Origin: a virus
Virus record (IMG/VR): IMGVR_UViG_3300023119_001752
Coordinates: 1 to 25,793 of that record
Length of the DNA stretch: 25,793 nucleotides
Strand: one strand, 5' to 3'
Under the pieces are notes generated by a model that had not been told where the DNA came from, did no database searches, and saw nothing but the letters and a program-made list of their open reading frames with translations. Shown piece by piece: positions 10,377 to 24,964 of the stretch (the stretch's first letter is position 1; every line of letters begins with the position of its first letter). The translations under genes were made by a program, and so were the position numbers.

Positions 10377-10910
10377 ATGCTTATGAAAACTGACAACCTC
10401 GGTGTACCTCGTTTCACCAATCAAAATCTTATCGATATGATTTATAGTGGCAATGCTGACAAATGCCATATTGTATTATGCGAACCAAGTAACGACATAG
10501 ACAAATTTAACAGTGCTATGGAAGCTCAAGGTTTCGATAAGCTACAAAAGTATATTCCTTTAGATGTAGATAAAACACAGTTTGATGCAGTGTGTCAATC
10601 AGAATGGTTGATGCCTGATACATATAAACAACTAGACGTAGCTCGGTGGCTTTACGATGCACAGTATCTTAGGCATTATGATGAAAAAAGAATAGATAGA
10701 ATAGATGACGAATTGTACGAATATGAAAAATATGGTATGATTGATCTATTAAGGTATCTAATTTATCTTGTAGACTTTATGCGAGAAAATAACATTGTAT
10801 GGGGCGTAGGAAGAGGTAGCTCCGTAGCTAGTTATGTGCTATATTTAATAGGTATACACAAAGTAGACAGTTTTAAATATAATTTAGACTACAAAGAATT
10901 TCTAAGATAA
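10377..10910 (+). CDS. Truncated DnaE-like (DNA polymerase III alpha) protein
   Basis: This is a 177-residue protein; ATG at 10377 or 10383 could start it. Residues ~124-177 match the part of bacterial DnaE that leads into the polymerase active site: YLIYLVDFMRENNIVWGVG, then RGSS, then SYVLYLIGIHKVDSFKY and YKEFLR. In DnaE this reads roughly as D-x-x-x-W-A-x-x-x-G-I-x-V-G-x-GRGS, and is followed by the catalytic PDxDxDF motif. Here the protein ends at FLR, just before that motif, and there is no PHP nuclease domain at the N-terminus. It therefore cannot be a polymerase and is more likely a binding or regulatory derivative, or a domain-sized relic kept for another use. The upstream 120 residues have no motif I recognise. 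The gene has no clear ribosome site and lies between virion genes and queD. Confidence 0.6.
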   Translation: MLMKTDNLGVPRFTNQNLIDMIYSGNADKCHIVLCEPSNDIDKFNSAMEAQGFDKLQKYIPLDVDKTQFDAVCQSEWLMPDTYKQLDVARWLYDAQYLRHYDEKRIDRIDDELYEYEKYGMIDLLRYLIYLVDFMRENNIVWGVGRGSSVASYVLYLIGIHKVDSFKYNLDYKEFLR

Positions 10911-11855: not shown

Positions 11856-12248
11856 ATGAAAAAATTTAAATCAAAAGTAAAAGCCATTGGTGACAAAGTT
11901 CTTGTTTCAGATATGGACTTTGGTGAACAAAAGACTAAAGGTGGATTAATTATTTCAAGTGATGACGGCCAAACACGCGGCGTCCATGCACGGTGGGGTA
12001 AAGTGTTTGACAAAGGCCCACGCAATAAAGATGATTATGAAATTGGCCATTGGGTATTGATAGAGCACGGCCGTTGGACAAGAGGCGTGGATTTTGAAAC
12101 TAACGAATTTACAGGCACCATTCGCATGGTTGAAAACTCTGCTATACTTGGTTATAGCGATACAAAACCAGACGATGTAATGTTCGGTAATGAGTATAAC
12201 GACGGAGACCATATGACCGTTGATCCTTCTAGCTTTATAAAAACATGA
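11856..12248 (+). CDS. GroES-like co-chaperonin (gp31-type)
   Basis: This 130-residue protein opens with the GroES barrel start VKAIGDKVLVSDMDF. A mobile loop follows at residues ~23-42: EQKTKGGLIISSDDGQ, in which GGLII occupies the position of the GroEL-binding hydrophobic tripeptide. The barrel continues with RWGKVFDKGP and VLIEHGRWTRG. T4 gp31 replaces host GroES so that the GroEL cavity can fold the major capsid protein, and a similar role is inferred here. It is longer than T4 gp31 (111 residues) by an acidic C-terminal tail (DDVMFGNEYNDGDHMT). An AAGGA ribosome site precedes the ATG. Its stop overlaps the next start as ATGA. The family call is firm in the loop region and less so for the tail. 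Confidence 0.75.
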   Translation: MKKFKSKVKAIGDKVLVSDMDFGEQKTKGGLIISSDDGQTRGVHARWGKVFDKGPRNKDDYEIGHWVLIEHGRWTRGVDFETNEFTGTIRMVENSAILGYSDTKPDDVMFGNEYNDGDHMTVDPSSFIKT

Positions 12249-13099: not shown

Positions 13100-13927
13100 A
13101 TGACCAACTACAAAATCAAAGATAAATTTGATAAGTCGTCTGCGGTTTGGAACAAATTCATACATAATAGTGCTAACAAATTAAAAAAAAACAACTATAA
13201 ACTTTTTTTAAAAGCAAATGATAAACTAGCTGTAAAAGAATGGATTGTAGAAGATCTCAATATTGGGGGTGATTATATATTGCCCCCGATGTATGTACAT
13301 GAGAATTTTGAAGAGGTAGTAGAACACACAGCACATTCTCGTTATTGGCTGAAGTGTAATCTATTTTCAGGACTTAATGCTAAAGTTATTGATGGTAATT
13401 ATATTATAGGTCGCAGTACAGAAACTACAGATAAAACAGGTTTTGAAAATCTAAAAACTAGTATTATCAATATGTGTAAGCGAGATAGCTTTAGTATGTA
13501 TCACTATGACAAAGGCGGCATTCCTTTGTTTTTTTCAGAGAAAGAATTGATAGATATTGTAGACTATAAGCACTTTTTTGTGTACGGTGAACATTTTTTT
13601 ACACAAACAGTTTACAATATCGAAAAAGGTACAGAGCATATAGAAGAATGCATGGTATGGACTGATGGGTCTCTCGTTGGTGCACAATTAGTAAATTCAG
13701 CTACACGGAATTTTGTTGTTCCTAAAAACTGGAAAGAACAAATAGGTGTTGCAAGTAAAATTGCTAAACACTTTGATTTCATAAGGATTGATGTTTTGTC
13801 AAATGAAAAAAGCGAAGAATTTTACATTGCAGAAATTGATACATTACCTCGTAGAGGTAATTATAAAGCAAAAGCTATACACGACATTATAGAACCGATT
13901 CTTTTAAAGAGATTTGATATTTCATAA
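13100..13927 (+). CDS. TupA-like ATP-grasp family protein (putative)
   Basis: This 275-residue protein resembles the TupA-type ATP-grasp family of polysaccharide gene clusters. Residues 41-65 (DKLAVKEWIVEDL, then GGDYILPPMYV) match the family's DKxxVxxxVxxxxGxxYxxP start. Lys85 in RYWLKCN is a candidate ATP-binding Lys. Residues 225-231 (FDFIRID) and 244-247 (AEID, followed by TLPRRGNYKA) match the acidic metal-binding end of the family (FxRxD...E). TupA proteins ligate amino acids, such as glutamate, in surface-polymer synthesis. A phage copy might modify host surface polymers, a peptide or a virion sugar (inference). It is strongly diverged and could be a different ATP-grasp subgroup. It begins 5 bases after the mazG-like stop. 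Confidence 0.5.
   Translation: MTNYKIKDKFDKSSAVWNKFIHNSANKLKKNNYKLFLKANDKLAVKEWIVEDLNIGGDYILPPMYVHENFEEVVEHTAHSRYWLKCNLFSGLNAKVIDGNYIIGRSTETTDKTGFENLKTSIINMCKRDSFSMYHYDKGGIPLFFSEKELIDIVDYKHFFVYGEHFFTQTVYNIEKGTEHIEECMVWTDGSLVGAQLVNSATRNFVVPKNWKEQIGVASKIAKHFDFIRIDVLSNEKSEEFYIAEIDTLPRRGNYKAKAIHDIIEPILLKRFDIS
13262..13290 (+). other. GC-rich hairpin inside the ATP-grasp gene
   Basis: Bases 13262-13272 can pair with 13280-13290 around a 7-base loop (TTATATA). Five consecutive G-C pairs (GGGGG with CCCCC) sit in the middle, flanked by A-T and G-T pairs; 11 pairs, three of them wobble. The hairpin encodes the conserved Gly-Gly and Pro-Pro of the ATP-grasp motif, which may explain part of it. No U-run follows, so it is not a classic terminator. 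Confidence 0.4.
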
Positions 13928-15732: not shown

Positions 15733-16310
15733 AGTATAGAATTTTATTAGTCGCATTAGAAGCAGAGCTGCCTTACAAGCAAGCGCCTAAAAACTGTAAA
15801 GTTATCTACACAGGAGTAGGTAAAGTAAATGCTGCCTTCGCAGCTACTCAAGCAATAGCAGAAGCCCATTCATTAGGCTTCCATCCTGAAGTTTATAATT
15901 ATGGTACTGTAGGCACATGCAATCATGACTTGCAAGGACTACATCGCATTACAAAATTTGTTCAACGTGACATGAACGCAGAGCCCCAAGCGCCGCGAGG
16001 AGTAACACCGTTTGAAGCTGGTTTACCTTACTTAGATTTTTCATTGGATATGACTCATAGCTTAACTTTAGGCACTGGTGATCAATTTGTACATAAGCAA
16101 GAAACATGGTTAACTGATAATAATATAGATATTGTTGATATGGAAGCATATGCTATTGCAAGTATTTGTAAAAAAATGAATGTAAACTTTACTTGTTATA
16201 AGTATATTACAGATTATGTCGGTACACCGCATCAAGCAGATGTTTGGCAATCACGTATAGCAGACGGTGTTGATGAATTTTTGAAAGTTATGAATGACAT
16301 ACATAGTTAA
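15729..16310 (+). CDS. MTA/SAH nucleosidase-like (nucleoside phosphorylase family) protein
   Basis: The start is the ATG overlapping the thymidine kinase stop; the open frame continues upstream but only inside that gene. The 193-residue product ([18 protein letters not shown]) has the MTAN fold pattern: [14 protein letters not shown] near residues 25-39, [11 protein letters not shown] with Glu139 (ribose-binding ME), and YITDYVG with Asp162 at the position of the catalytic Asp of MTA/SAH nucleosidase. Bacterial MTAN is ~230 residues, so this form is shortened in the middle. It would cleave methylthioadenosine, S-adenosylhomocysteine or a related nucleoside to adenine and a sugar. That could relieve product inhibition of methyltransferases or feed purine salvage (inference). 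The end overlaps the ferredoxin gene by 17 bases. Confidence 0.75.
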
Positions 16311-16635
16311 CGATAATTGTATCCGTTGTAAGCATATGGACTGTGTAGAAGTATGTCCTGTTGACTGTTTTTACGAAGGTGAAAATATGCTAGTAATTAA
16401 TCCAGACGAATGCATTGACTGCGGCGTTTGTGAACCTGAATGTCCTGCTGATGCTATTCAAGCTGACTCTGCAGAAGGTGTCGAGCACTGGGTAGAATTT
16501 AATCAAAAGTGGAGTGAGCAGTGGCCTAACATCACTGTTATGCGTAAAGACGATGTGCCTGCAGATGCTGAACAATGGCATGGCGTTGAAGGTAAAATAA
16601 AATATTTTTCAGAACAACCAGGAAAAGGCGATTAA
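16294..16635 (+). CDS. fdxA: 7Fe ferredoxin (3Fe-4S/4Fe-4S), FdxA type
   Basis: This 113-residue protein is full length for the alphaproteobacterial FdxA family (about 112) and closely follows its sequence pattern. Cysteines lie at 9, 12, 17, 21, 25, 40, 43, 46 and 50. By analogy to Azotobacter ferredoxin I, Cys9, 17 and 50 would hold the 3Fe-4S cluster, and Cys21, 40, 43 and 46 the 4Fe-4S cluster; Cys12 and Cys25 would be free. The [16 protein letters not shown] linker is the family signature, and the C-terminal half contains the expected WPNIT segment. It is a soluble low-potential electron carrier. Phages more often carry plant-type 2Fe-2S ferredoxins. The gene overlaps the nucleosidase gene by 17 bases and shares TAATG with thyX. 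Its redox partner is not visible. Confidence 0.9.
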
Positions 16636-17312: not shown

Positions 17313-17524
17313 TGCCATTTATAGGTTGGGATAAACAACGAAAAATTAGATGGCATAAAAAATTTGCTTTTTTGCCAACTAAAACAGCTAGTGGGAAAAC
17401 TATTTGGTTTTCCCACTACTATGTCCGCACTATAGAAATTGTACGAGGTAATTCTGTAACTATAGAATCGATAGGTACAACTTATACATATAATGAATAT
17501 TTAAAATATATGTTGATCCGTTAA
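17312..17524 (+). CDS. Small hypothetical protein
   Basis: This 70-residue basic protein (IRWHKKFAFLPTKTASGKTI, then WFSHYYVRTIEIVRGN) has a strand-rich pattern that could form a small beta-barrel-like fold, but I recognise no family. Its start overlaps the thyX stop (TAATG) and its stop shares TTAA with the stop of phoH on the other strand. The tight coupling argues that it is real. It is the last gene of the metabolic run. Confidence 0.6.
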   Translation: MPFIGWDKQRKIRWHKKFAFLPTKTASGKTIWFSHYYVRTIEIVRGNSVTIESIGTTYTYNEYLKYMLIR

Positions 17525-18198
17525 TTGTAAACTCTTAATATTTCAGCTACTACTGGATGACGCTCTATATCGTAACGATCAAATTGCACGGTTGATATAT
17601 GTGATGTGGGTGTTCGCACTAATCTATTTAAGAAAAGCATAAGGCCATTATCTTGAGATCTATCTGCTTGCTCTAAATCACCAGTTATTGCCATTTTACT
17701 GTTTTCGCCTATTCTAGTTAAAAACATTTTCATTTGATTGTCTGTTGTATTTTGCATCTCGTCGCCAATTATATAAGAATTTTTAAATGTTCGCCCACGC
17801 ATAAATGCCAGGGGAGCTATCTCGATTACTTCTTCATACATCATCGATTCTATTTTGGATTTTGGAAAATGTTCTAAAAGTACGTCTCTTACTGGACGTA
17901 TCCATGGCGCCATTTTTTCTAGAATATCACCTGGTAAATGACCCAGTTCTTCGTCTGTTTCTACAACTGGTCGAGTTACTATAATTTTATCTACTTTTTT
18001 TTCTTTAAATGCCTTTATTGCTGCCTTTACTGCTAGTAATGTTTTTCCTGTGCCTGCTGGCCCAGTACCAACTACAATGTGTTGATTAAAATCTAGTAAC
18101 CTCCTTATGTATTCATCTTGTTTTATGTTTCTAGGTTGTAATTGTATTATATCCTTAGCGTAGCTGTTTTGTTTTTCAACTTTCCGCTTTGCACCCAT
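17521..18198 (-). CDS. phoH: PhoH-like P-loop ATPase
   Basis: This 225-residue protein, read right to left, has the PhoH core: Walker A GPAGTGKT at 46-53, the VTRPVVETDEELGHLPGD motif at 74-91, and Walker B IIGDEMQNT with Asp146-Glu147. TGDLEQAD follows, then a C-terminal RHPVVAEIL segment. It lacks the N-terminal extension of longer bacterial PhoH proteins. PhoH is widespread in marine phages. Its phosphate-starvation link comes from the E. coli name, and an RNA or stress-related ATPase role is likely but unproven. It is the only minus-strand gene. The start is well supported by GAGGAG 8-13 bases upstream (plus-strand complement near 18205-18212). Its stop overlaps that of the facing gene at TTAA. 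Confidence 0.92.
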   Translation of the reverse strand: MGAKRKVEKQNSYAKDIIQLQPRNIKQDEYIRRLLDFNQHIVVGTGPAGTGKTLLAVKAAIKAFKEKKVDKIIVTRPVVETDEELGHLPGDILEKMAPWIRPVRDVLLEHFPKSKIESMMYEEVIEIAPLAFMRGRTFKNSYIIGDEMQNTTDNQMKMFLTRIGENSKMAITGDLEQADRSQDNGLMLFLNRLVRTPTSHISTVQFDRYDIERHPVVAEILRVYN

Positions 18199-18307: not shown

Positions 18308-18859
18308 ATGTACACTGTAGAAAATTTACTAGATAACTTATCAGACATTTATAATCAAAATACCAGTTTCTCAATTTTAAAAGATTTTGAAAGAGTTTTA
18401 GACGAGTTTTTTGATATATATGTGTTTGACAATTGGGAACACGGAGAAATTGTAAAAGGACCAATCATATCCAAATATTGGGTTACTTGCTATTTCATGT
18501 GGGACGACGATAAGCGTCCTGATCTTAGTGTGTTAGAAAGATTCAAATCTAATAATTGTATGAGCAAGACCGGTACTAGTTATTTTATAGAGCCTATCCG
18601 TATTTTAAAACCTGAAGATATTAGGCCAGGCACTAAAAAAGGCAAACTCAAACGTAAAAAGGTTTTTGTTATTGGAATTAAAGTGCCAAAGACTTTATTA
18701 AAAAACGTTTATGCTGGTCAAGATATCTTTAAGAAAGCAGAAGCAGAAGCAGCTGAACAAGGTTTGGCTCCTAATGCGCCGGCTGAAGACATGGGACTAG
18801 GACAGCCCCCGGTTACTGATGCTGCAATGGGCGCACCGTCTGTACCAGGAGTAATATAA
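18308..18859 (+). CDS. Conserved late protein of unknown function
   Basis: This 183-residue protein has a conserved-looking first part: VENLLDNLSDIYNQNTSF, SILKDFERVLDEFFDIYVF, GPIISKYWVTCYFMW. It has a basic centre (PGTKKGKLKRKKVFVIGIKV), and a low-complexity Ala/Pro/Gly tail of ~45 residues (AEAEAAEQGLAPNAPAEDM and so on). I recall this layout from proteins of T4-like marine phages, without a function. The late-promoter box upstream and the TAATG-type coupling to the next gene suggest a virion or assembly role. The gap to the lysis genes is nil. No T4 counterpart is recognised. Confidence 0.7.
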   Translation: MYTVENLLDNLSDIYNQNTSFSILKDFERVLDEFFDIYVFDNWEHGEIVKGPIISKYWVTCYFMWDDDKRPDLSVLERFKSNNCMSKTGTSYFIEPIRILKPEDIRPGTKKGKLKRKKVFVIGIKVPKTLLKNVYAGQDIFKKAEAEAAEQGLAPNAPAEDMGLGQPPVTDAAMGAPSVPGVI

Positions 18860-19572
18860 TGGGCTTACTAGCAAACGATTTGCAAGATTTAGTTAAAAAA
18901 ACCTTCGAAGTCGATACATATGCAAGTAAGATGGGCGAGGATAAAAACATAATAACCCTAAGCTTCAGCGTTAAACATGAGTCGCCTGCTAAAGATCTTG
19001 TTAAATTTTTAGAATCCGGATATGATTTTATATTAGATGCTGCGGTTTCTAGTGGCGAGCAGGATGATGGGAGATATAGAGTTTTTGTAGAAATGGAACG
19101 TAATAAACATTCAATAGACAATATAGAAATTTTATTAAGAGACATTTCTAAGCTAACAAGAATAAATGAATGGAAATTTAGATATTATAAAAATTTCAAA
19201 ACCTATGACGCAACAAAAGATACACTTGCGCAAATTATCCCTACCGATCCTAACCGCTACGGCATTGACCGAAAAGTTGCTGAAAGTTACAATGCTGAAA
19301 GCTTTTTTAGCAAAAGTCACGTAGATACTATTATTCTAGACGAAAACCAAATAATTTTGAAAAAACTATATTCAGATCCTATCGCACTTAAAATAATTGA
19401 CTTTAATTCACATAGAGAGATATTTGAAAATCTAACTGAGAGTTATAACTATAACGATTTTGCAGAAGTAATATACTTTGTAAAATATCTAGGTGACTAC
19501 GATATAACAAAATACGGTAATAAAATAATTATAGAAAACGATGGATATTGTTTGGTTACAGAAAGGCTTTAA
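18859..19572 (+). CDS. Conserved late protein, possible virion component
   Basis: This 237-residue protein starts MGLLANDLQDLVKKTFEVDT and is mixed alpha/beta with no membrane segment or catalytic motif that I recognise. The first half contains ITLSFSVKHESPAKDLV and RYRVFVEMERNKHSIDNI, which read like a small alpha/beta domain. A second segment (FSKSHVDTIILDENQIILKK, then VTERL at the end) follows. The start overlaps the preceding stop by one base (TAATG) and the end abuts the inner-membrane spanin gene. Co-expression with a late promoter suggests a structural or assembly function, but this is inference only. Confidence 0.65.
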   Translation: MGLLANDLQDLVKKTFEVDTYASKMGEDKNIITLSFSVKHESPAKDLVKFLESGYDFILDAAVSSGEQDDGRYRVFVEMERNKHSIDNIEILLRDISKLTRINEWKFRYYKNFKTYDATKDTLAQIIPTDPNRYGIDRKVAESYNAESFFSKSHVDTIILDENQIILKKLYSDPIALKIIDFNSHREIFENLTESYNYNDFAEVIYFVKYLGDYDITKYGNKIIIENDGYCLVTERL

Positions 19573-20055
19573 ATGTTCAAAGCACAATTAATTTTAATAC
19601 TAGTGATAGCACTTATACCCATAGGTATAGGCGGATACTGGTACGTAAATAGTTTACAACGGGCTTTGGAAATTTCAAGGGCTAATGAAGCAAAGTTACA
19701 GCAAGCCGTTGCTACAAACGAAGAAACAATAAAAGTTTTACAACGTGATTTTCAAGCAGCAACACAAGAATTACAAAAAGTAAATGATGAGTTTGCTGCT
19801 ATACGTAAACAAAATCAAAATTTAATAGGAAAACTAGAAAGGCACGATTTAGGTTTATTAGGCGAAGCAAAACCAGTATTAGTCGAACGTATTATTAATA
19901 GAGCAACTGATAAAGCTAATAGATGTATAGAGATTCTAAGTGGCGCTGATTTAACTGAAGATGAGTTAAATGCAGCAACGCCTAATGGTTTTAATAGTGA
20001 ATGTCCATGGCTATGGACCCCTCCTGTAACCGAAGGAGAGGAAACAAATGATTAA
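19573..20055 (+). CDS. Inner-membrane spanin (Rz-like) candidate
   Basis: This 160-residue protein has one N-terminal membrane segment at residues ~4-25 (AQLILILVIALIPIGIGG) and a long charged coiled-coil stretch at ~30-90 (ALEISRANEAKLQQAV, VLQRDFQAATQELQKVN), followed by a periplasmic C-terminal part. This is the standard i-spanin design, in which the coiled coil crosses the periplasm and joins an outer-membrane lipoprotein to fuse the two membranes at lysis. The C-terminal part has Cys117 and Cys144 and a Pro-rich end (CPWLWTPPVTEGEE). The next gene, which overlaps by 8 bases, encodes a lipoprotein; that arrangement strongly supports the spanin call. No sequence-level Rz family match is claimed. 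Confidence 0.75.
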   Translation: MFKAQLILILVIALIPIGIGGYWYVNSLQRALEISRANEAKLQQAVATNEETIKVLQRDFQAATQELQKVNDEFAAIRKQNQNLIGKLERHDLGLLGEAKPVLVERIINRATDKANRCIEILSGADLTEDELNAATPNGFNSECPWLWTPPVTEGEETND

Positions 20056-20416
20056 AAAAATTATTATATCTGCAATTGCTATTATTGCTTTAACTAGTTG
20101 TAGTTTACCAAATGTAACACCTGTTGAAGTTACAAGTGCACCTACAGAAAGACTAAAATTAACATTGCCAAACATCGATCCAGTTACACAAAAAGAAGTT
20201 AAATGGATTCTAATAACCGAAGAAAACTACGAGCAAGTATTTAATGATTTAAAAGAAACAGGTGAACCAGTAGTATTTTTTGCTCTTACTGATACAGGTT
20301 ATGCAAATATATCAATAAACTATCAAAATGCAAGACAAATTATTCAGCAACAGCAGGCTATTATAGCTGCATACGAAAATTATTATGTAAATGTAGACAA
20401 TTTAGAAGTTAAATAA
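20048..20416 (+). CDS. Outer-membrane lipoprotein spanin (Rz1-like) candidate
   Basis: This 122-residue protein starts with a lipoprotein signal (MIKKIIISAIAIIALTSCS): basic start, hydrophobic core, and lipobox Leu15-Thr16-Ser17-Cys18. Cys18 would be lipidated after signal peptidase II cleavage. The mature part is Thr/Pro-rich at first (LPNVTPVEVTSAPTERLK), with a globular-looking middle and a short helical end (ARQIIQQQQAIIAAYENYY). It overlaps the Rz-like gene by 8 bases, as expected for an i-spanin/o-spanin pair. It is longer than lambda Rz1 (60 residues), so it may have an extra domain. Confidence 0.75.
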   Translation: MIKKIIISAIAIIALTSCSLPNVTPVEVTSAPTERLKLTLPNIDPVTQKEVKWILITEENYEQVFNDLKETGEPVVFFALTDTGYANISINYQNARQIIQQQQAIIAAYENYYVNVDNLEVK

Positions 20417-20793: not shown

Positions 20794-21567
20794 ATGGACC
20801 ATTATGCAACATTAGGTATACATAAGTCAGCTTCAACTGATGATATCAAGGCTGCGTTTAAAAAACTAGCCTTGCAATATCATCCTGATAAAGGCGGCGA
20901 TAGTAAACATTTTGCGAAAATTACAGAAGCATATGATGTTTTAAGTAACGCTGACAAGAGACATGAATATGACAACCCAACAGATTTTAACTTTACAACA
21001 GATGATATTTTTAGTCAGTGGGTAAACAAACAACGCTACCATCGAAATCAAAATATAAAAATTACATATAGTATTGATTTCATAGACCAATTTACAGGAA
21101 AAACAACTAGTATAAGTTACAAATTACCTAACGGCAATACAAAAGAGGTAGTAATTAAAATACCTAAAGGCATAACACACGGCCAGCAATTAACATTTTC
21201 AAAACTAGGCGACGATACAAATCCCTATATTAAGCCAGGCTCTTTAATACTAGATATAAAAGTAAAAAATGATACAAACTGGTCAAGGGACGGAAATGAC
21301 ATAAGAACTAGTATAGATATCAACGTGTTTGATTTAATTCTAGGCACAACTATTCACGTAAATTTACCAACTGAACAAAAATTTAAATTAAATATTAAGC
21401 CAGGAACAAAGCCAAATACTGTACTAAATATACCAGAATATGGAGTACCTCATTTGAGCACAGGATTGTCAGGCAATGTTCTTATAAAACTCAACGCCGT
21501 TATACCAGAAATAACCGATAACCAAATCCTTAATCAAATTGAAAAAATTCGAGACACAATAGGATGA
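20794..21567 (+). CDS. DnaJ-like J-domain co-chaperone
   Basis: This 257-residue protein has a full J domain at residues ~1-65 ([20 protein letters not shown]), with the HPD motif at 30-32 in YHPDKGGD, which stimulates DnaK ATPase. It lacks the zinc-finger repeats (CxxCxGxG), so it is a type II (CbpA-like) J protein. Residues ~86-257 resemble the DnaJ C-terminal substrate-binding domains: [70 protein letters not shown]. The Gly/Phe linker is very short. It would recruit host DnaK to phage or host substrates. It is followed by a hairpin and then a Clp unfoldase gene, which together suggest a chaperone group. No strong ribosome site is seen before the ATG. Confidence 0.85.
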
Positions 21568-21635: not shown

Positions 21636-23846
21636 ATGATTAACACTACTGAAGAAGTACAATTAGCTTTTGATAAAGCGCTACGTGATGCAAATAAGCT
21701 TAAGCATGAATATATAACGCTTGAACATTTGGCTTTTGCAATGTTATGCGTAGAAGAATTTTCAAAATCAATTGAAAATATTGGTATAAATGTTGACGAA
21801 TGCAAAACAAATCTAGAAAACTATCTAGTTAACGAATGCGAAGATATTGTTGTTGAATCAATAGCAAAAGTAAAGCGTACTCGAGCTGTGGAAAGAGTAA
21901 TGCAACGTTCGTTTGCCCAGTCTTTGTTTTCTGCTAGAGATAAAGTAGGATTGTCAGATATTCTTCTTAGTTTACTTCACGAAAAAAATTGTTTTGCTGT
22001 ATATTTTTTACTGCAATCAGGTATTACTAAAGAAAAAATTGCGGAACATCTGTTTGGTGACTTACTTGACGGAGAATTTAATTTCGACGGTAGTGCTTTA
22101 GAAAAATACGCAGATAATTTAACTGAACTTGCAAAAGAAAACAAAATTGATCCAGTAATTGGTCGAAGCGAAGAGCTAGAAAGTATTTCGTTAGCATTAG
22201 GTAGAAGAACAAAAAATAATGTACTATTAGTAGGTGATCCAGGAGTAGGTAAAACAGCTATTGCAGAAGGCTTGGCACATAAAATAAACAATAAAGAAGT
22301 GCCAGAGTTTTTGTATGATTACGAAGTGTATAGTCTACGTATTCCATCTTTGCTTGCAGGCACAAGATACCGTGGTGAATTCGAAGAGCGTATGGAGCAT
22401 CTTTTAGAAGAATTAGATCAAAAAGAAAAACTAGTTCTTTACATTGACGAGGCTCATATGATTAACGGTGCTGGTGCAGGTAACAGTGAAAACCCAAATG
22501 ATCTTGCAAATATTTTAAAACCAGCACTCGCTAAAGGTAAAATTAAAATTATTGCAAGTACAACATGGGAAGAGTATAGAAAGTATTTTGAGAAAGATTC
22601 TGCGCTTATGCGGAGATTCCAGCGCTTAACGGTTGACGAACCAGACGAGTCAACAACCTATGATATATTGCTAGGAATTAAAAAATACTATGAAGACTTT
22701 CATCAAGTAAAAATTAGAAAAACTGCACTTCAAACTGCAATTAAACTTACAGTGAAATATCAACAAAATAAAAAGTTGCCCGATAAAGCTATTGATATTT
22801 TAGATCAAGCATGTGCTAGATTTAAGTTATCTGAGACTTATGAAAAGAAACTAGTACGGCCAGCTAATATAGAATTTGAAATGGCAAAAATTATGAAAAT
22901 GCCATTAGAAACTGTTCAAGAAAAAGAAACAGACACTCTTGCTAATCTAGAATCAAACATTAAAACTAAAGTTTACGGTCAAGATTCTGCCGTAGAAACT
23001 ATCGTAGATAGAATTTGCGTAGCAAGAGCTGGATTAAAAGCCAAAAATAAACCCATCGGTAGCTTTGTATTTATGGGTCCAACTGGTACTGGTAAAACTG
23101 AAACTGCTAAACAATTGTCAGAAAATTTAGGCGTTCCGCTTATTAGATTTGATATGAGCGAATTTCAAGAATCTCATAGTGTGTCTAAACTTATCGGATC
23201 ACCTCCGGGCTATGTTGGTTATAATGAAGGCAGTGGCAAGCTTATAAACAAACTAGAAGAAAATCCTAACTGTGTTTTGCTTTTAGATGAAATCGAAAAA
23301 GCGCATCCTGATGTATCACAAATTCTTCTACAAATTATGGATAACGGAAAGGTTACCGGAAGTAACGGTAAAGAAGTTGATGTATCAAATTGTGTCTTAA
23401 TCCTTACAACAAACTTAGGTGCAGTTGATACTGAAAAAAATACTATAGGCTTTGGTGATCCAAAAAACAAAGTTTACAAAAAAGATGCTTTTAAGAAATA
23501 CTTCCAGCCTGAATTTAGAAATAGGATTGACAAAGTAATAGTATTTAACTATCTTGAAAAACCTGTTATTAAAAATATTGTAGATAAATTTATTACAGAA
23601 GTCAAATCTTTTGTTGAATCTAAAAGCATTAATATAGTTGTAGACGACTCGGCAATTGAATACCTAATTGATAATGGATACGATAGAGAAATGGGAGCAC
23701 GTCCTTTAAGTCGGGTAATTGACGAAAAAATTAAAACACCGCTTAGTAAACAAATGTTATTTGGTAAACTAAAAAATGGCGGCACTGTGTATGTTTCTGC
23801 ATTAGAAGATATAAGATTAGAATTCGAGGCAGCAAATGCTTTATAA
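21636..23846 (+). CDS. ClpA-like double AAA+ unfoldase
   Basis: This 736-residue protein has the layout of ClpA (758 in E. coli): two ClpN repeats at residues ~1-140, D1 with Walker A GDPGVGKT at 200-207 and Walker B IDEAH with Asp271-Glu272, and D2 with Walker A GPTGTGKT at 481-488 and Walker B LLLDEIEKAH with Asp551-Glu552. The pore segment GSPPGYVGYNEGSG, the PEFRNRID motif and GARPLSR at the C-terminus are also present. There is no long middle coiled coil, so it is not a ClpB/Hsp104 disaggregase. At residues 604-606 an IGF tripeptide replaces the IGL of ClpA, at the position of the ClpP-docking loop. It may unfold proteins and hand them to host ClpP. No ClpP or ClpS is in the window. The end overlaps the next gene by 11 bases. 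Confidence 0.9.
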   Translation: MINTTEEVQLAFDKALRDANKLKHEYITLEHLAFAMLCVEEFSKSIENIGINVDECKTNLENYLVNECEDIVVESIAKVKRTRAVERVMQRSFAQSLFSARDKVGLSDILLSLLHEKNCFAVYFLLQSGITKEKIAEHLFGDLLDGEFNFDGSALEKYADNLTELAKENKIDPVIGRSEELESISLALGRRTKNNVLLVGDPGVGKTAIAEGLAHKINNKEVPEFLYDYEVYSLRIPSLLAGTRYRGEFEERMEHLLEELDQKEKLVLYIDEAHMINGAGAGNSENPNDLANILKPALAKGKIKIIASTTWEEYRKYFEKDSALMRRFQRLTVDEPDESTTYDILLGIKKYYEDFHQVKIRKTALQTAIKLTVKYQQNKKLPDKAIDILDQACARFKLSETYEKKLVRPANIEFEMAKIMKMPLETVQEKETDTLANLESNIKTKVYGQDSAVETIVDRICVARAGLKAKNKPIGSFVFMGPTGTGKTETAKQLSENLGVPLIRFDMSEFQESHSVSKLIGSPPGYVGYNEGSGKLINKLEENPNCVLLLDEIEKAHPDVSQILLQIMDNGKVTGSNGKEVDVSNCVLILTTNLGAVDTEKNTIGFGDPKNKVYKKDAFKKYFQPEFRNRIDKVIVFNYLEKPVIKNIVDKFITEVKSFVESKSINIVVDDSAIEYLIDNGYDREMGARPLSRVIDEKIKTPLSKQMLFGKLKNGGTVYVSALEDIRLEFEAANAL

Positions 23847-24537
23847 AGATTCCTTCAAACTTTTTTACAATAAATTTACATATAAGCTAGAAATAATTAC
23901 ACCAGCAGCTTTTCTTTTTAGAAACAAAGATTTGCAAACTGTAAAAAATACAATTGACGAGTTTTTAAACAACAAATTTCTTTTAGACCGTGAAGATTTA
24001 GAAGAATGGCCTAGCGAGCTTTCTTATTCTTCTAAATACTTTTATCGCAGGTTCCGCCCTTCAGAAGACGATATATTACAATGTCAAAAGTTACATAATT
24101 ATTTAAGCACTATTGACATTGATGCTAAAGTAAGAGTAGAAATAAATAATCTTTCAATTTATTCTAATCAACACCAAGATTTAATTAATCTAGGTGAAAA
24201 ATTAAATTGTAAATGGAAAACTTTTTATCGTCCTAATAAAAAAATAGCTGGCAATTTAAAACCTAATACAATTTATCATAGTTTTGCTGACAAATACAAA
24301 TACAAAGTAACAATAGGCAGAGTGTATGACGAGTCGTTAGGTTCATTTATGGAGACAAATAACAATAATTTTGTAAAATTAGGTCCAAGTTGTTTAGATG
24401 CAATAAAAAATAAAAAATGCGGTACATATAATAGCTATTATTTTTATGTAAGGGATGACAAAATTTTAAACATGATTTCTATGTTTGGATTTGAAATAAA
24501 ACGTATAGAGGAACTACTTCCTAAATCAGATAAATAA
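23836..24537 (+). CDS. Hypothetical protein of unknown function
   Basis: This 233-residue protein overlaps the clp-like gene by 11 bases and is very rich in Lys, Tyr, Phe and Asn. It starts MLYKDSFKLFYNKFTYKLEI and contains paired segments with similar feel (KFTYKLEIITPAAFLFRNK near the start, KYKYKVTIGRVYDESLGSF later), so it may have two related halves. No membrane segment, catalytic motif or cysteine cluster is seen. No family is recognised; replication-accessory or nucleic-acid-binding roles cannot be told apart. The stop lies 4 bases from the next virion gene. Confidence 0.6.
   Translation: MLYKDSFKLFYNKFTYKLEIITPAAFLFRNKDLQTVKNTIDEFLNNKFLLDREDLEEWPSELSYSSKYFYRRFRPSEDDILQCQKLHNYLSTIDIDAKVRVEINNLSIYSNQHQDLINLGEKLNCKWKTFYRPNKKIAGNLKPNTIYHSFADKYKYKVTIGRVYDESLGSFMETNNNNFVKLGPSCLDAIKNKKCGTYNSYYFYVRDDKILNMISMFGFEIKRIEELLPKSDK
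24530..24537 (+). promoter_or_regulatory. Weak late-promoter-like box ATAAATAA
   Basis: ATAAATAA covers the end of the preceding gene and ends only 4 bases before the ATG at 24542, giving almost no leader. It differs in one base and in spacing from the other boxes. Listed because it precedes the second virion block, but it may serve as coding sequence only. Confidence 0.25.
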
Positions 24538-24541
24538 CACT

Positions 24542-24964
24542 ATGCCAGGAAATAGTGTTACAATTTTATCATCTCAAGTCCACGCAGGGGACAGCACAGT
24601 ACAAACAGTTACTAGTGACAAAGTTCAAGGTGACGGTTACTACGGTCGTTCTGATGGTTTTCATACTGTGCAAATTAATCTTACTGATTTCTCAGGAGAT
24701 ATTACTCTTGAAGGTAGTTTAGCTTTAACTCCTACAGATGAAGATTGGTTTACAATAGAACTTTCTTCAACTAGCACTGTTGCTGGTACTGTAGATACTA
24801 CAGGTGCTGTTAGTACAGGTTCAACAGTAACAGTTTCTAGTCTTTCTTACGCCGACGAAACGTCAAATAATAATTTTAATTTTGTAGGAAATTTTGTTTG
24901 GATTCGTGCTCAAGTTGCAGATTGGACTAATGGCAGTATTGGTAGTATTTTAATGAATCATTAA
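24542..24964 (+). CDS. Small beta-rich virion protein
   Basis: This 140-residue protein is Ser/Thr/Val-rich with little charge. It contains GDGYYGRSDGFHTVQINLTD, then EGSLALTPTDEDWFTIEL near the middle and NFVGNFVWIRAQVADW near the end. I recall this sequence style from small structural proteins of marine T4-like phages that lie next to fibre genes. Its fold is probably a beta-sandwich, suited to decorating the virion or binding a surface ligand (inference). There is no signal peptide or membrane segment. It is followed 9 bases after its stop by a fibre gene with an AAGGA ribosome site. Confidence 0.6.
   Translation: MPGNSVTILSSQVHAGDSTVQTVTSDKVQGDGYYGRSDGFHTVQINLTDFSGDITLEGSLALTPTDEDWFTIELSSTSTVAGTVDTTGAVSTGSTVTVSSLSYADETSNNNFNFVGNFVWIRAQVADWTNGSIGSILMNH

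Follow-up and report, generated by a model that had tools for sequence, protein, structure and literature searches.

The window analysed here, a 25,793-nucleotide (25.8-kb) IMG/VR viral fragment (IMGVR_UViG_3300023119_001752), encodes a protein that, judged by its sequence, is a ClpA-type unfoldase. The reading we favour, to which we give a probability of roughly 0.6, is that this protein serves as the unfoldase of a phage-encoded ClpAP(S) protease and not as an adaptor for the host ClpP. The gene and its recognisable parts are the following:

21636..23846, + strand: clpA-like gene, 736 aa, PHROG 4871 phage ClpA family (phmmer, profiles, tree)
21636..22055, + strand: N-terminal Clp_N (ClpN) domain, approximately residues 1-140 (Pfam; helical in the model)
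22233..22256, + strand: D1 Walker A, GDPGVGKT, residues 200-207 (motif)
23076..23099, + strand: D2 Walker A, GPTGTGKT, residues 481-488 (motif)
23277..23300, + strand: D2 Walker B, LLLDEIEK, residues 548-555 (motif)
23445..23453, + strand: IGF tripeptide, residues 604-606, putative ClpP-docking loop (alignment, conservation, model)
23508..23525, + strand: PEFRNR, D2 arginine finger region, residues 625-630 (motif)
23694..23708, + strand: GARPL, D2 sensor 2, residues 687-691 (motif)

The reading frame is intact from the ATG at 21636 to the stop at 23846, and the reverse strand across this interval has no long frame. Walker A/B, aromatic pore-loop, arginine-finger and sensor motifs were all found in both AAA+ rings, in agreement with an earlier note on this DNA that had described a 736-residue protein with two complete AAA+ modules. 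The same note had recognised a ClpN domain and the lack of a ClpB-type middle domain, and both points held: the Clp_N match is weak but exceeds the Pfam cut-off (27 vs 20.7 bits), the protein is collinear with E. coli ClpA in an end-to-end phmmer alignment covering residues 6-722 of the latter (E 2.5e-185), and a ClpB-type coiled-coil middle domain was not found, ClpA models aligning in one stretch and ClpB models in two. The best NCBIfam family is ClpA (TIGR02639, 823.5 bits, under the equivalog cut-off of 993.15) and, among PHROGs, 4871 ('ATP-dependent protease') matches best (817.5 bits, E 2.6e-245, positions 8-750 of 764). An AlphaFold model built from 36 sequences (mean pLDDT 79.8, pTM 0.49) returned chains of ClpAP and ClpAPS complexes as the top matches in a structure search (VIA; Z ~34), with an rmsd of 3.2-3.9 Å over ~550 residues and the N-domain barely covered.

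Comparison with E. coli ClpA, the unfoldase of ClpAP, gave 43% identity end to end, with the same domains and motifs, but the window protein falls below the equivalog cut-off and in a separate phage clade. ClpB/Hsp104 disaggregases and ClpC also combine two AAA+ rings with an N-domain; the window ClpA, however, has no middle domain insertion as in ClpB/Hsp104, E. coli ClpB lacks the tripeptide, and ClpC groups outside phage and bacterial ClpA. A tree of 66 proteins united the phage sequences, without exception, in a single clade (99*) whose sister is bacterial ClpA, with ClpC lying apart; the PA5oct branch is long and of unsure place within the phage clade. The nearest relative, the ClpA of the IMG/VR contig L001, is 76% identical to the window protein, while cultured members of PHROG 4871 are 39-49% identical; this family, with the proteins of RaK2, 121Q, GAP32, PA5oct and Atu_ph07, is matched over the full length and falls in the same clade. 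A DNA-level search for close cultured phages gave no match. By these comparisons the window gene belongs, as a divergent member, to a known phage ClpA family, and is nothing unusual for a phage. Jumbo phages of the RaK2, PA5oct and Atu_ph07 kinds carry PHROG 4871, and phage ClpA is already known, since it has been named in the Atu_ph07 genome paper (PMC6102473), described in a jumbo phage review (PMC7824862) and listed among the genes that moraphages widely share (PMC12619734). Two hits from the Acinetobacter 'phage' MD-2021a (H1, H2) were rejected as bacterial chromosome fragments on their clpS-clpA-ynfA-aroF gene content and are left out of the phage counts, as are unannotated Listeria, Enterococcus and Staphylococcus 'phage' hits, also suspected to be bacterial fragments.

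The loop that would connect such an unfoldase to ClpP lies between TTNLG (residue 591) and PEFRNR (residue 625). The earlier note had placed Ile-Gly-Phe at residues 604-606 where E. coli ClpA has IGL, and the phmmer alignment sets the two tripeptides exactly on each other. The chance of IGF by composition is ~1.7e-4 at one fixed position but ~0.13 anywhere in the protein, so that position and conservation are what count. Among 61 non-redundant phage homologues the triad reads IGF in 44, VGF in 8 and another [ILVM]-G/N-[FMV] combination in 9, the first column being [ILVM], the second G in 60/61 and the third F in 54/61; the column entropies (1.07, 0.12 and 0.61 bits) compare with a mean of 2.2 bits for the surrounding loop, and conservation of the triad within an otherwise variable loop indicates that it is under selection (see PMC9035409). 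In the model, residues 602-611 follow a helix at 596-601 and have pLDDT below 50, as expected for a mobile docking loop, and are thus predicted to be flexible. Most bacterial ClpA proteins retrieved carry IGF, MGF or VGF, and IGL occurs in the two enterobacterial ones only; IGF in a ClpA is therefore ordinary, and not special relative to the IGL of E. coli. Taken together, the alignment and the model support a putative docking role for this conserved, flexible loop, which has the position and the sequence of a ClpP-docking loop.

The distribution of ClpP (PF00574) and ClpS (PF02617) was examined in 12 complete or near-complete ClpA-bearing jumbo phage genomes, one of which, Vibrio phage 2.275, is labelled partial. 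All 12 encode a full-length ClpP (E 5e-42 to 9e-81), its Ser-His-Asp triad intact, and a ClpS domain, the latter over the curated cut-off in 11. Eleven control phages without a full-length phage ClpA, picked as well known and not by Clp content (T4, KVP40, phiKZ, G, PAU, P-SSM2, HTVC008M, phiR1-37, AR9, CbK and SPN3US), contain in contrast a full-length ClpP in one case only (phage G) and ClpS in none. Fisher tests gave uncorrected p values of 1e-5 (ClpP) and 7e-7 (ClpS), which become 0.004 and 0.0007 on collapsing to 4 lineages, shared ancestry among the controls still being ignored. Jumbo phages also gave further weaker or partial matches to PF00574; these resemble head maturation proteases and are excluded from the ClpP counts. 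Several PA5oct-like records (NC_071039, OR805292-OR805295 and others, phage Paride included) give full-length phage ClpP genes the name 'head maturation protease', a label that hides the ClpA-ClpP pairing. In phage G (NC_023719, 187823-189564) a ClpX-like ATPase comes immediately after a full-length ClpP; the two probably form another phage-coded Clp pair, in which the unfoldase is a different one.

Neither ClpP nor ClpS was found on the 25.8-kb window record, and L001 (37.8 kb) likewise lacks ClpP, but contigs of the window clade whose ClpA is 57-59% identical to that of the window do carry one. In eight large contigs ClpP and clpA share a strand, with ClpP 30-58 kb upstream, and the ClpA is at least 56% identical to the window protein in seven of them and 49% identical in the remaining one (G080); as the window extends just 21.6 kb upstream of clpA, absence of ClpP there is expected. 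A ClpP match was found in 9/18 longer ClpA-bearing IMG/VR contigs, that of G002 being truncated at the contig end, and the lack of ClpP in half of the mid-size ones can be due to incompleteness. Starting from ClpP, 18 IMG/VR contigs of at least 75 kb include ClpA in 9 and ClpS in 12, and the three longest (251-316 kb) have both. Phage ClpA, ClpP and ClpS have been noted separately before. The Atu_ph07 paper lists all three (PMC6102473), and a review considers that phage ClpS serves host ClpAP and occurs 'instead' of phage ClpP (PMC7824862). A general co-occurrence was not found described in the literature searched, most subscription journals lying outside it, and the 12/12 result suggests that the three genes travel together. 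Shared ancestry of large genomes may also account for the co-occurrence. Some ClpA-bearing phages additionally carry ClpX-like ATPases (weak matches), and these could be the partner of ClpP in such phages.

All 24 phage ClpPs aligned retain the catalytic Ser/His/Asp; 23 are full-length matches with 34-64% identity to E. coli ClpP, and L095 is a partial outlier. Eight phage ClpS domains keep Asp35 (8/8), His66 (6/8), Glu79 (8/8) and Lys84 (7/8), positions that serve N-degron and ClpA binding in E. coli. The probable partner of the window ClpA is a ClpP like that of PA5oct and of the IMG/VR window clade (63.5% identical to each other), with the S-H-D triad and an E. coli-like docking pocket; it differs from E. 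coli ClpP by a 10-residue handle insertion and is not on the window fragment. A variant with MIHRVSSG at the active-site histidine (MIHRASGG in PA5oct) and this insertion occurs in L087-L091, L094 and L111; it is distinct from the MIHQPSGG type, and as each type is found alongside the same ClpA clade, a swap of ClpP seems to have taken place.

Loop and pocket were also compared, the docking-pocket positions and their numbering being taken by us to be those of E. coli ClpP. The ClpPs of the window clade, PA5oct and the Atu_ph07/Phosso type have broadly E. coli-like pockets, and their ClpAs carry [ILV]GF. The RaK2-like ClpPs have K44, mostly N, C or S at 82, and G114 (V44K, F82N/C/S, L114G), and their ClpAs carry LGM, MGM, VGM, IGV, IGM or MNM; in place of the xGM or IGV of these phages the window ClpA retains IGF. 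XaC1 (VGF) and Vibrio phage 2.275 (IGV) have intermediate pockets. The loop changes xGM/IGV/MNM were confined to phages with a changed ClpP pocket, namely the RaK2-like ones and Vibrio phage 2.275. Since the ClpP of enterobacterial hosts is served by IGL/IGF loops, the drift in RaK2-like phages would fit adaptation to their own ClpP, a pattern that is suggestive and comes from essentially one lineage.

The genomic surroundings place clpA among chaperone and virion genes:

11856..12248, + strand: GroES/gp31-like co-chaperonin, PHROG 931 (profiles; PA5oct has a counterpart)
17521..18198, - strand: PhoH-like ATPase of the conserved neighbourhood (profiles, synteny)
18308..18859, + strand: virion structural protein, PHROG 12928 (profile, synteny)
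18859..19572, + strand: virion structural protein, PHROG 13138 (profile, synteny)
20794..21567, + strand: DnaJ with J domain and C-terminal domain, directly upstream of clpA (profiles, synteny)
23836..24537, + strand: conserved gene of unknown function overlapping the clpA stop (ORF list, synteny)
24542..24964, + strand: small protein matching PHROG 13657 (unknown) and 14467 (virion structural) (profile, synteny)

The DnaJ gave no zinc finger match. IMG/VR relatives keep the order clamp loader, FdxA, ThyX, PhoH (reverse), two virion proteins, spanin-like pair, DnaJ and ClpA; of this order PA5oct has the clamp loader, PhoH, virion proteins, DnaJ and ClpA, its DnaJ-ClpA and PhoH neighbourhood being the same as that of the window. 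The DnaJ-ClpA order is kept in PA5oct, Atu_ph07 and the IMG/VR relatives, with DnaJ near or adjoining ClpA in Atu_ph07 and Phosso. The clpA of RaK2-like phages stands by itself, flanked by virion and tail-sheath genes. The chaperone neighbourhood, with DnaJ and the GroES-like protein, suggests that ClpA may work late in infection, at virion assembly.

Several other genes of the window deserve mention. The FdxA-type ferredoxin (16294-16635, + strand) scores 153 bits against an NCBIfam FdxA_Protbact cut-off of 135 and is kept in several IMG/VR relatives (L005, L011, L023, L044, L048 and L066); annotated phage records gave five matches only, weak or in suspected bacterial contamination, and this may be an uncommon auxiliary metabolic gene. 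A fragment matching part of DNA polymerase III alpha (10377-10910, + strand, PHROG 11127) fits an earlier description of Pol III alpha as split in group 2.2 jumbo phages (PMC7824862). Two overlapping small genes (19573-20055 and 20048-20416, + strand) resemble an inner/outer spanin pair, with a membrane-anchored coiled coil and a lipobox-like start, and a gene for a TupA-like ATP-grasp protein (13100-13927, + strand), unusual in a T4-like phage, adjoins MazG.

Other roles have to be weighed against a phage-encoded protease. The earlier note had raised host takeover, in which the phage ClpA would dock on the ClpP of the host and turn it toward selected proteins of host or phage. The window IGF loop does match bacterial ClpA loops, the ClpP pockets of the nearest relatives are E. 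coli-like, which makes cross-docking on host ClpP chemically plausible, and the 25.8-kb fragment has no ClpP of its own; yet relatives, among them the 12 ClpA-bearing jumbo genomes, carry both ClpP and ClpS, and the RaK2-like loop has departed from the host-type IGL/IGF together with the ClpP of those phages. Redirection of host ClpP is not supported as the leading reading, and we regard it as unlikely. Host ClpP might nevertheless serve as an additional partner, given that the window is a fragment and that the ClpP pockets of its nearest relatives still resemble that of E. coli. The SAR11 connection raised in the same note likewise found no support, HTVC008M, the one cultured Pelagibacter T4-like phage tested, having no ClpA.

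A protease-independent chaperone, acting as an unfoldase or remodeller in virion assembly with DnaJ and GroES-like partners, would agree with the position of the gene, which in almost every phage examined has virion, tail or chaperone genes beside it, and with the suggestion in the jumbo phage review that ClpA could help in virion assembly (PMC7824862). The triad is absent from ClpB, however, which is a pure chaperone; here it is kept even though the remainder of the loop varies, and ClpP accompanies ClpA in 12/12 genomes; the conserved triad disfavours the view that the unfoldase works alone, and we consider this role rather improbable. That the gene is a recently captured host clpA with no phage-specific role would account for a full-length ClpA-type protein sister to bacterial ClpA, but the phage members form a single clade, the closest ClpAs retrieved from bacteria show ~45% full-length identity against up to 76% for phage relatives, and synteny is kept as far as PA5oct. 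Recent capture was rejected on the tree and the synteny, and its probability is very low indeed.

The phage-encoded ClpAP(S) protease thus remains the preferred reading. The ClpA hexamer would probably thread substrates through its two AAA+ rings, and six IGF loops would dock it onto a ClpP barrel; this is most likely one that the phage itself encodes, tens of kb from clpA. Substrates, arriving directly or, at least for some, via phage ClpS, would then be fed into phage ClpP; a cryo-EM study of E. coli ClpAPS shows how this works in bacteria (PMC9663308). We infer that the window phage has a ClpP and that the parts bind each other, in which case a complete ClpAP(S) protease would be encoded alongside DnaJ and GroES-like chaperones, and its task may be the degradation of host or surplus phage proteins, together with quality control during assembly. 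A bolder proposal, which we put forward tentatively and consider possible though doubtful, is that several jumbo phage lineages carry a complete ClpA-ClpP-ClpS set, with an interface that in RaK2-like phages is no longer host-type, as a private N-degron-type machine insulated from the host Clp system and reshaping the proteome of the infected cell. If the three genes do travel together, large phages would bring a self-contained regulated protease into the cell; the host proteins destroyed in infection, defence proteins included, would then become directly testable, as would the orthogonality of the phage docking interface to that of the host.
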